A DNA stretch of 40,694 nucleotides, from positions 1 through 40,694 of the forward strand of contig JAQWSL010000016.1 of assembly GCA_029243225.1 (NCBI GenBank), in the 5' to 3' direction. The position numbers and the translations under genes are program-made. Of the stretch, positions 7,921-12,047 are shown one piece after another (the stretch's first letter is position 1; each line of letters starts with the position of its first letter). The DNA is from Flavobacteriales bacterium. Lineage in GTDB: Bacteria > Bacteroidota > Bacteroidia > Flavobacteriales_D > Parvicellaceae. The notes under the pieces were generated by a model that saw nothing but the letters and a program-made list of their open reading frames with translations, had not been told where the DNA came from and did not search any database.

Positions 7921-8538
7921 ATGCCATTTATAAAAATTGAAAAAATAAAGTCTGGATTAATCGGTTTTTGGGAAATAGCTGAAAAAGATGACTTTAATTT
8001 AGCAAATTCTATTTTTAAATCATATCATCCCAACTGTAAAAACTACAAAAATGAGTATCGGAAAAAACAAATTTTAGCCACTCGTTTACTAGCAAATAAA
8101 ATGTGTCCAAAAGAAAACATCTTTCAAGATTCATTTGGAAAACCCCATTTTGAATCTAAAGAAAAGTATTTAAGTATTTCTAATGATCAAGACATCGTAG
8201 TACTGTACATATCCAATCAACCTTGTGGAATAGATATACAATCAATAAATAAAAAAATATCCAATATTTCTCATAAATTTCTCAATAAAAATGATTTCGC
8301 TAAAGATTATAATGAAAAAGAATTAATTCATTTATGGTGTGCTAAAGAATCGATGTATAAAATATACGGGAATCCTGAAATTTTATTTAAAAAGCATCTA
8401 ACAATATTTGAAATAAAAGGCGATAACACTTTACATGGAATAAGCTCACAACCAAAATTTTTATTTAATTGTATAATTAATAATTTAAAATTTAAAAATT
8501 ATTACTTAGTTTACACAAGCAGCTTCAAAGAACTATAA
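7921..8538 (+). CDS. 4'-phosphopantetheinyl transferase superfamily protein
   Basis: A 205-residue protein of the Sfp/AcpS-like superfamily, which attaches CoA-derived phosphopantetheine to carrier proteins. The Mg-binding motif GIDI is at 103-106 and the second signature, LWCAKESMYKIYG (138-150), holds Trp139, Lys142 and Glu143. The N-terminal motif contains FGKPHF (72-77), equivalent to the G-K-P segment of Sfp-type enzymes. The segment that usually reads SxSHS reads SISND here (85-89), so the CoA-contacting His is replaced by Asn. The stop codon directly abuts the ATG of the GGGP synthase gene. No carrier-protein or synthase genes are in the window, so the target is unknown. Confidence 0.87.
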   Translation: MPFIKIEKIKSGLIGFWEIAEKDDFNLANSIFKSYHPNCKNYKNEYRKKQILATRLLANKMCPKENIFQDSFGKPHFESKEKYLSISNDQDIVVLYISNQPCGIDIQSINKKISNISHKFLNKNDFAKDYNEKELIHLWCAKESMYKIYGNPEILFKKHLTIFEIKGDNTLHGISSQPKFLFNCIINNLKFKNYYLVYTSSFKEL

Positions 8539-9276
8539 ATGAATTTAAAAGACGAGATAACAAATAAATCTATTCTGAAAGAAAAAATGTGGGCGATTTT
8601 AATCGATCCAGATAAAACACCTTTTTCAACGTTACCAACGTTAATACAATCAATAAATAGCTGCTCTTGCAACTATATCTTCATTGGCGGAAGTCAAATT
8701 TTTAATGTGAATTTTCATGATTATGTTTCTAAAATAAAATCATTATCAACAAAAAAAATCATCATTTTCCCTGGTGACAACACTCAAATATCATCATCTG
8801 CAGACGGAATCCTATTGTTAAGTTTAATTAGTGGTCGAAATCCAGACTTACTTATAGGAAAGCATGTACAATCGTCTTATGAATTAAAAAAAGCAGCCAT
8901 TTCATTGTTGGCTACAGGTTATATTTTAATTGAAGGTGGGGTACAATCCTCTGTTCAATACATAAGCAACACCAATCCAATTCCAAAAAACAAATACAAT
9001 ATTGCTGCAGCCACTGCACTAGCTGGTGAACAATTAGGGCTACATTTAATATATGCAGATGCGGGATCAGGAGCTTTAAACCCTCTTTCAAAAAAAATGA
9101 TTTCTTCAATTAAAAAACAGCTTTCTATCCCCCTAATTATTGGAGGTGGAATTACATGTTATAATGATATTGAAAATGCATGGATTGCTGGAGCAGATAT
9201 CGTTGTTATTGGAAATGCTATTGAAAAAAACAAAAAATTAATTGAATTACTTAATAAGAGAATGAAATGCAATTAA
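8539..9276 (+). CDS. Geranylgeranylglyceryl/heptaprenylglyceryl phosphate synthase (PcrB/GGGPS family)
   Basis: A 245-residue TIM-barrel prenyltransferase that joins sn-glycerol-1-phosphate to a polyprenyl diphosphate through an ether bond, as in archaeal lipid synthesis. Diagnostic segments: WAILIDPDK (18-26), IFIGGSQ (47-53), FPGD (77-80), TGYILIEGG (126-134), YADAGSGA (172-179), PLIIGGGI (198-205) and IVVIGNAIEKN (221-231). Bacterial group II homologues are known in Flavobacteria; chain-length preference cannot be read from sequence alone. It starts one base after the PPTase stop and its 3' end overlaps the next gene by 10 bases, indicating translational coupling. Confidence 0.93.
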   Translation: MNLKDEITNKSILKEKMWAILIDPDKTPFSTLPTLIQSINSCSCNYIFIGGSQIFNVNFHDYVSKIKSLSTKKIIIFPGDNTQISSSADGILLLSLISGRNPDLLIGKHVQSSYELKKAAISLLATGYILIEGGVQSSVQYISNTNPIPKNKYNIAAATALAGEQLGLHLIYADAGSGALNPLSKKMISSIKKQLSIPLIIGGGITCYNDIENAWIAGADIVVIGNAIEKNKKLIELLNKRMKCN

Positions 9277-9887
9277 ATCTATTTACAAGTAACGATAAAT
9301 TTAGAAGTGAAATTTACATTGTTATTAAATTGCTGGAAAATGGACTTCAAAGTCTTCAAATAAAGAAACCTGATTTTACAAAAAAACAACTCCGTTCATA
9401 TATTGATCAAATTCCTGAAAAATTTCATGATAAATTAATTATACACTCACATTACAATTTAATTTTCAAATACAACCTAAAAGGAATACATATATCAAAA
9501 CACTTTAGAAACAAAAAAATAAAATTTAAAACTTTATTATTTCTAATTAAATACTTTAGAAAAGGTAAAATTATCAGCTGCTCTTGTCACAATATTGATA
9601 AATTATTAGATGTACCAAAATTTTATACGAATGTTTTCATATCACCAATATTTACTAAAGAGAATAACCTTAATCCATTGTTTCCTTTAAAAACACTAGA
9701 AAACATTATTCCACAGCTAGAATCAAAAGTTTTTGCTTCTGGGGGAATAAACCTAACAAACGTTGATTTGATTAAAAATGTTGGTTTTGAAGGCGTTGGA
9801 TTAATGGGAAGTATCTGGTTTGATGATGCAAAACAACCTTTATTACATTTTAAAGAATCTAAGAAAAAGTTAACAACCTTATCTTAA
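9267..9887 (+). CDS. TenI/ThiE-like TIM-barrel protein (thiamine phosphate synthase superfamily)
   Basis: A 206-residue protein of the TMP synthase/TenI fold. Family segments: ENGLQSLQIKKPDFTKKQL (28-46, the phosphate/pyrimidine loop), KLIIHSHYNLIFKYNLKGIHIS (substrate-side strand), SCSCHNIDKL, FISPIFTKEN and FASGGINLTNVDLIKNVGFEGVGLMGSIW near the C terminus. The usual Q/H-x-R-x-K of ThiE/TenI reads QIKKP, so the arginine is missing, which casts doubt on true thiamine phosphate synthase activity. Start ATG 9267 lies inside the end of the GGGPS gene. No other thiamine gene is nearby; linkage to GGGPS suggests a role outside thiamine synthesis (inference). Confidence 0.75.
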   Translation: MQLNLFTSNDKFRSEIYIVIKLLENGLQSLQIKKPDFTKKQLRSYIDQIPEKFHDKLIIHSHYNLIFKYNLKGIHISKHFRNKKIKFKTLLFLIKYFRKGKIISCSCHNIDKLLDVPKFYTNVFISPIFTKENNLNPLFPLKTLENIIPQLESKVFASGGINLTNVDLIKNVGFEGVGLMGSIWFDDAKQPLLHFKESKKKLTTLS

Positions 9888-10957: not shown

Positions 10958-12047
10958 ATGATATCAAACGAGCAATTAGAAGAGTTGTGTAAGCGCCTGG
11001 ATGCGTTGAGGGGGTACCTTTGACGTTGAAACAAAAAAAACTGAAATAGCTGAAGAAGAGCTAAAAACACAAGACCCTGAATTCTGGAATGATCCTAAGG
11101 CTGCAGAATTAATACTCAAGAAAATAAAAAAGAAAAAATTTTGGGTGCTTTCATGTGATAATATTCAAAATCAAATTGAAGATTTACAAGTGCTTTATGA
11201 GTTTTTCAAAGAGGGTGAAGTTGATGAAGTTGAAATCAAAAAAAATTACGATAAATCTGTGAATTCAATCGAAGAATTAGAGCTGAAAAATATGCTTTCT
11301 AGTGAAGAAGACAATCTTGATGCTATTCTTCAAATTACAGCTGGTGCCGGAGGAACAGAAAGTTGTGATTGGTCATCTATGCTTATGCGCATGTATTTAA
11401 TATGGGCAGAAAAAAACAATTATAAGGTTAAGGAGTTAAATCTTCAGGATGGTGAAGTTGCAGGCATAAAAACAGTAACATTAGAAATTTCTGGAGATTT
11501 TGCATTTGGTTACCTCAAAGGAGAAAACGGAGTACATCGACTTGTTAGGGTTAGTCCATTTAATGCTCAGGGTAAAAGAATGACTTCTTTTTCATCTGTT
11601 TATGTATACCCGTCAGTAGATGACACCATTGACATAAAAATTAACCCATCTGATATATCTTGGGACACCTTTAGAAGTGGTGGAGCTGGTGGCCAAAATG
11701 TAAACAAAGTTGAAACAGGTGTGCGTTTAAAACATGCTCCAACTGGAATTGTAATAGAAAATACAGAATCTAGATCACAATTAGCTAACAGAGAAAAAGC
11801 AATTCAGCTATTAAAATCTCAGCTATATGAACTTGAGATAAGAAAACAAAGAGAAAAACAAAATGAAATTGAAGCTGGTAAAATGAAAATTGAATGGGGG
11901 TCTCAAATAAGGAGCTATGTATTGGATGATAAAAGAGTAAAAGACCATAGAACTAATTTTCAATCAAACGATCCATTTAAAATATTAGATGGTGATTTAG
12001 ATTCTTTTTTAAAAGCATTTTTAATGGCAACTGGTGAAGCCAAATAA
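10958..12047 (+). CDS. prfB: Peptide chain release factor 2 (programmed +1 frameshift)
   Basis: RF2 terminates translation at UGA and UAA. The first 21 codons run from ATG 10958 to an in-frame TGA at 11021-11023; reading then continues one base later (from 11022) to the TAA at 12045-12047, giving about 362 residues, close to the 365 of E. coli. The order is the short pre-shift segment ending LRGYL, then DVETKKTEIAEEEL, the helical N-terminal domain, the RF2 stop-recognition tripeptide SPF in VRVSPFNAQGKRMTSF, and the catalytic GGQ in RSGGAGGQNVNKVET. A frame-only gene call would miss the first ~62 residues and start at a GTG (11145) inside the gene. Frameshifting at this site autoregulates RF2: low RF2 makes ribosomes pause at UGA and shift. 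Confidence 0.95.
11009..11024 (+). promoter_or_regulatory. prfB programmed +1 frameshift site
   Basis: The sequence reads AGG GGG TAC CTT TGA C. It has a Shine-Dalgarno-like AGGGGG (11009-11014), three bases, the slippery CTT (11018-11020), then the in-frame stop TGA followed by C (11021-11024). This is the canonical RF2 recoding signal, differing from the E. coli one (AGGGGGTATCTTTGAC) at one base. Protein reading resumes with GAC in the +1 frame. Confidence 0.96.

Follow-up and report, generated by a model that had tools for sequence, protein, structure and literature searches.

A TenI-like protein encoded behind GGGP synthase in Bacteroidia may have been recruited away from thiamine synthesis

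In the window, the whole 40,694-nucleotide stretch of DNA analyzed here, the gene for a TenI-like TIM-barrel protein directly follows the genes for a phosphopantetheinyl transferase and a GGGP synthase. Judged from its sequence, the TenI-like protein is not a ThiE, and it is not a TenI of the usual kind either. We lean, with slightly better than even confidence, toward recruitment of this protein to a thiamine-independent job beside GGGP synthase. The initial annotation had raised the idea of such a recruitment, and it is supported by the residue pattern of the protein, its retention in genomes without ThiG or ThiE, and purifying selection on its gene. Among the points against recruitment, the loci of relatives have genes for thiamine synthesis or uptake at their border, and tests controlled for the tree lack power.

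All three genes lie on the forward strand, and the open reading frames and their contacts, as first annotated, are present in the sequence. The first gene (7921-8538) encodes an Sfp-type 4'-phosphopantetheinyl transferase (PPTase) of 205 aa, the second (8539-9276) a group II GGGP synthase (GGGPS) of 245 aa, and the third (9267-9887) the TenI-like protein of 206 aa, which is of the GGGPS-linked type. The PPTase and GGGPS genes touch at 8538/8539, and the end of the GGGPS gene overlaps the start of the TenI-like gene by 10 bases (9267-9276). The family assignments also hold, with E values of 1.4e-6 for PF01648 (ACPS), 3.5e-33 for PF01884 (PcrB), and 1.9e-12 for PF02581 (TMP-TENI). The PPTase scores 28.7 bits against PF01648, above the gathering score of 25, and contains what we take to be the GID motif (CGIDIQ) and a WxxKES-like motif (LWCAKES). 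The GGGPS reaches 135.6 bits against the GGGP-family model TIGR01768 (cut-off 113.25), and its nearest solved structure is 4jej (6.9e-58), presumably the F. johnsoniae GGGPS. At 47.4 bits against PF02581 (gathering score 27), the TenI-like protein is a member of the TMP-TENI superfamily. Its nearest solved structure is 3ceu (1.6e-22 by sequence, 1.1e-44 by profile), and it falls under every listed NCBIfam thiE/tenI cut-off. An AlphaFold2 model of it from two sequences had a mean pLDDT of 39.7 and was set aside. Elsewhere in the window, prfB (10958-12047) has its ATG at 10958 and an in-frame TGA within AGGGGGTACCTTTGAC (CTT TGA C, 11018-11024), which we take to be the well-known site of programmed +1 frameshifting in release factor 2.

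The three-gene order on which the initial annotation built its proposal is conserved. Among 150 genomes of the order, GGGPS was found in 129, a relative of the PPTase in 131, and the TenI-like protein in 46. The PPTase gene is directly upstream of GGGPS on the same strand in 82 of the 129 GGGPS-bearing genomes, the TenI-like gene is directly downstream in 28, and all three genes are together in 27; 18 of the 46 TenI genomes do not have the GGGPS linkage. The linkage of PPTase, GGGPS, and TenI is beyond chance. A class sample of 295 genomes gave TenI profile matches in 146, GGGPS in 253, and ThiG (E<=1e-30) in 98. Loci were classed with GGGPS, PPTase, and thi profiles built from 41 stretches. 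Before counting, we removed copies that were shorter than 160 aa or had a better score as ThiE, and places in G167, G287, G389, G316, G348 (C20), and G420 (C104) were omitted from the set. Among the matches listed, order and class together hold 168 distinct TenI-like copies, with 95 directly behind GGGPS, 50 in thi operons, 10 near thi genes, and 13 elsewhere. Copies in G155, G262, and G420 were classed in this last group and are not in the 95, yet they are probably GGGPS-linked by their coordinates and neighboring PPTase matches. Among the matches listed, 75 of the 95 linked copies have a PPTase match before GGGPS, and in 76 of the 95 TenI starts no more than 19 nt from the last GGGPS sense codon. 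The trio is a conserved unit that is probably co-translated. Since most of the 253 GGGPS-bearing class genomes have no linked TenI among the matches listed, the TenI-like protein is not needed for GGGPS. In many relatives (e.g., L083, L085, L087, and L112), a gene for S-adenosylhomocysteine hydrolase (cluster c3) is divergent from the PPTase gene; the window has a WG-repeat protein at this position instead.

The initial annotation had also placed the carrier-protein activator in a possible lipid or isoprenoid-linked pathway; a special carrier-protein pathway is not supported. With PF01648, the trio PPTase was the only place found in the window's genome (G000) and in the near-complete relative G002. 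With no second PPTase found there, it is probably, and most simply, a general housekeeping holo-ACP synthase; its most likely task would be to activate the cell's acyl carrier protein(s). The GGGPS is predicted to make a prenyl-glyceryl phosphate. It keeps the glycine phosphate site, Y128, and Y172, and it has Asp174 at the position of the active-site Glu (Y172-A-D174, 9052-9060), as Asp fills this column in 102 of 133 aligned Bacteroidia GGGPS. An excerpt of a study on group II GGGPS describes Tyr/Tyr/Glu active-site residues and calls the Glu strictly conserved (PMC9385802). We make no claim about chain length, because the limiter column first chosen was variable (L, Y, F, M, N) and the same excerpt places the limiter at another position (PMC9385802). 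A model for the source of G1P, PF13685 (EgsA/AraM-type dehydrogenase), matched 63 of 70 genomes and also the E. coli control and is therefore not specific. The TenI-like protein itself was rejected as a G1P source, since most GGGPS genomes do not have it.

Much of the argument for recruitment comes from the thiamine genes of the genomes that carry the linked protein. Among the matches listed, 59 of the 95 genomes that carry a linked TenI lack ThiG, where absence means absence of a profile match, some genomes are incomplete, and the thiamine synthesis enzymes covered were ThiG and ThiE. The share of TenI copies linked to GGGPS is 59/64 in ThiG-less genomes compared to 36/104 in ThiG-bearing ones, again among the matches listed (Fisher 2e-14, kinship ignored). 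A PF02581 search covered the 59 linked ThiG-less genomes plus G155 and G262, with five ThiG-bearing genomes run alongside. Only G189, G358, and G430 of these 61 ThiG-less genomes had a strong second, ThiE-like match; 58 of 61 had none. Other extra PF02581 places in ThiG-less genomes were weak and partial, and those in G204 and G408 were barely above the cut-off, with neighbors in frame. In five of these ThiG-less genomes (G152, G198, G267, G297, and G326), PF02581 misses even the linked copy, a sign of its strong divergence. The window's genome, which is 86.5% complete, has the linked gene as its sole TMP-TENI place and no true ThiG by profile search, and neither true ThiG nor ThiE was seen in the single-contig relative G002. 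Thiamine work by the TenI-like protein in the window's genome seems unlikely. Another possible explanation, which we consider rather improbable overall, is that the linked protein is still a thiamine protein: a tautomerase where ThiG exists, and a protein of salvage, sensing, or damage control in ThiG-less genomes. The missing ThiE-like match in 58 of the 61 genomes argues against it.

The residue pattern bears on both readings. TenI copies in a thi context combine a His at window column 108 with the Lys of an S-I-S-K motif in 60/60 cases. When a linked copy is the sole TenI found in a ThiG-bearing genome, it has the pair in 11 of 12 cases, which favors continued thiamine work; the exception, G323, is on a short thi contig. 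The pair occurs in 0/21 linked copies with a verified second TenI, in 0/3 where a second TenI is likely but unverified (G207, G275, and G360), and in 3/59 linked copies of ThiG-less genomes (G014, G040, and G093, all of one genus). It is therefore incomplete in 56 of the 59 ThiG-less copies, contrary to what a retained thiamine role would predict. Second TenI copies in the 14 genomes counted all keep the His. In a plain table, the pair stands at 70/71 vs 3/80 (Fisher 3e-38, kinship ignored). The window protein keeps His108 (codon 9588-9590) but has Glu132 (codon 9660-9662) at the column of the invariant Lys, so it does not have the thi-type pair. Several further positions hardly vary among linked copies: H60, G73, and G176 are kept in 95/95, K34 in 94/95, and G159, G160, and W184 at fractions of 0.99, 0.97, and 0.99. 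Two genomes, G269 and G200 (L162 and L171), have two tandem TenI genes behind GGGPS, one per residue type.

All 95 linked copies, among the matches listed, also carry a strongly basic segment. In the window protein it covers residues 76-107 (codons 9492-9587), 32 residues with a net charge of +10. Measured from G-I-H to column 108, the stretch is 32 residues long in linked copies, with a mean net charge of +8.5 in ThiG-less genomes and +9.5 in ThiG-bearing ones; over the linked groups compared, the means span +8.5 to +9.8. The same stretch has 25 residues and a charge of about 0 in 21 ThiE proteins, 21 residues and 0 in near-thi copies, and 28 residues and +3.4 in thi-operon copies. The segment is present in 23/72 unlinked copies and in 0/7 of those from genomes listed as GGGPS-less, a number too small for proof of a link. 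Nor is it confined to copies behind GGGPS, since several thi-operon copies in the same subclade have it. An amphipathic membrane helix was considered and rejected for this segment; its mean maximal helical moment (0.34) was not above that of shuffled sequences (0.42), and only charge is claimed for this reason.

The claim that no thiamine genes are adjacent stands for the window but not for many relatives. No other thiamine genes were recognized among the window proteins scanned, which were part of the window's genes, and no TPP riboswitch was found within the window. In some ThiG-bearing relatives (G022, G035, G063, G090, G172, G179, G219, and G156 are examples), linked TenI converges on thiH, behind which come thiG, thiE, and mostly thiD and thiC; this arrangement with ThiH was seen for ten linked copies. 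A TonB receptor of cluster c16 takes the convergent position in 12 ThiG-less genomes, and in some of these the genes behind it encode AAA_28, a PnuC-type transporter, and a member of a thiamine-binding-protein family. This receptor operon is probably one for thiamine uptake. In G013, the c16 receptor has a TPP riboswitch directly upstream. G007 has a c16-type neighborhood and GGGPS, and TenI is missing there. These thiamine-bordering loci are the main support for the idea of a protein still in thiamine work, in which the GGGPS locus would long have been bordered by thiamine genes. However, 46 of the 59 ThiG-less linked copies have no thi or c16 neighbor within 600 bases downstream, although some loci are short, and no TPP riboswitch was found at the trio in any locus scanned. 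The riboswitches found at L078, L091, and L107 belong to loci with thi operons. A short TenI of 168-191 aa is encoded next to thiD in G164, G334, G305, and G243 (L245, L247, L248, and L249). The G-I-H stretch is missing from these short proteins, the His is kept, and G/S-I-S-K lies near an S-P-I-F motif.

A tree built with the trait columns removed places all 95 linked copies in one group of 118, whose remaining members are 17 thi copies and 6 others (SH-aLRT 87, branch not starred). On this tree the His and Lys pair needs 7 changes and the label "needed for thiamine" needs 9. Well supported branches give only 3 independent pairs, of which 2 agree, 0 go against, and 1 shows no difference, and the result is not significant. 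The TenI-like gene is under persisting purifying selection: linked TenI has a dN/dS of 0.04-0.13 in eight ThiG-less pairs, with two further pairs saturated, and compared within the same pairs these values are near or somewhat above those of GGGPS and mostly below those of PPTase. This range argues against a functionless relic, spared through its coupling to GGGPS when the thi genes were lost, as does the invariance of H60, G73, G176, and, with one exception, K34. We regard a relic as very unlikely, even though a position next to thi genes in prototrophs could account for the survival of GGGPS-linked copies alone in genomes without ThiG, and even though one locus (G099:C1:64378-66112) has in-frame stops in all three trio genes. 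That unit may be decaying together, or the assembly may contain errors. Selection appears to keep the TenI-like protein for something tied to GGGPS, and the link may be a lipid.

Recruitment to a job beside GGGPS could have proceeded as follows. The TenI-like protein would descend from a Bacteroidota TenI of the thiazole-tautomerase type. Behind GGGPS it would have kept its barrel motifs and phosphate-binding glycines. In genomes that no longer make thiamine or that hold a second TenI, it would have lost the His/Lys pair associated with the thiamine role. The protein may now act with GGGPS. We guess that it binds a phosphorylated small molecule or lipid of the GGGPS pathway, either the GGGPS product or its precursor; the basic segment may touch an acidic phosphate or membrane surface. 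The tight coupling and conserved gene order, and the loss of thiamine-tied residues from a barrel that keeps its motifs, would also fit a non-enzymatic partner that attaches to the GGGPS oligomer or to the PPTase as a scaffold or regulator. This seems unlikely to us, since the conserved phosphate-site glycines G159 and G160 suggest ligand binding. A more specific proposal is possible but doubtful: a TenI paralogue recruited into the PPTase-GGGPS unit would perform an uncharacterized step of prenyl-glycerol ether-lipid synthesis in Bacteroidia. Loss of thiamine synthesis or the presence of a second TenI would have released it from thiamine duty, and it would now serve only the GGGPS pathway by binding a phosphorylated lipid or precursor.

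GGGPS was found in 253 of 295 Bacteroidia genomes sampled, and to our knowledge there is no agreed lipid product for it in these bacteria. A tightly linked partner gene that has dropped the thiamine signature would give a concrete handle on this pathway. It may also show clearly how a vitamin enzyme takes on another role, with a residue pattern that predicts the copies still serving thiamine. For annotation, genes named "thiamine phosphate synthase" may have nothing to do with thiamine in Bacteroidia that lack its synthesis. Among the open-access papers searched, we found none that links phosphopantetheinyl transferase to heptaprenylglyceryl phosphate synthase or geranylgeranylglyceryl, and none that links geranylgeranylglyceryl to TenI or thiamine phosphate.

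Among known systems, the nearest solved relative is the TenI of Bacteroidota thi operons (3ceu), which we take to be BT0647, the B. thetaiotaomicron TenI. It has the barrel and glycine motifs in common with the window protein, which differs in lying outside a thi operon, without a TPP riboswitch and without the S-I-S-K Lys, and in having the 32-residue basic segment that 3ceu lacks. For B. thetaiotaomicron, the excerpt of PMC5613172 describes thiSEGCHF-tenI, OMthi, and pnuT, and it notes variants with ThiE or YjbQ and with THI4. The window protein shares the superfamily PF02581 with ThiE. In 21 ThiE proteins, however, an Asn (20/21), an Asp (21/21), and a downstream Asp (21/21) occupy the positions of H60, S61, and F80, and these ThiE residues presumably form the metal/diphosphate site. 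Against the ThiE model TIGR00693, the protein scores 29.7 bits and does not reach the cut-off of 145.1. The thiazole tautomerase TenI of B. subtilis (1yad, 3qh2) aligns over the second half (6.6e-11, family profile). We considered the S-x-H histidine of the window protein as the counterpart of its catalytic residue, which we take to be His122 of the G-H-V-F motif, and rejected this since the alignment puts that His at Pro127. The TenI equivalog NF005819 gives 25 bits with a cut-off of 251; thi-operon TenI copies of relatives are also below it (28 and 63 bits), which puts Bacteroidota TenI outside the range of this model. Lastly, the GGGPS matches 4jej and so resembles FjGGGPS and group IIb, from which it differs in having Asp174 in place of the catalytic Glu.
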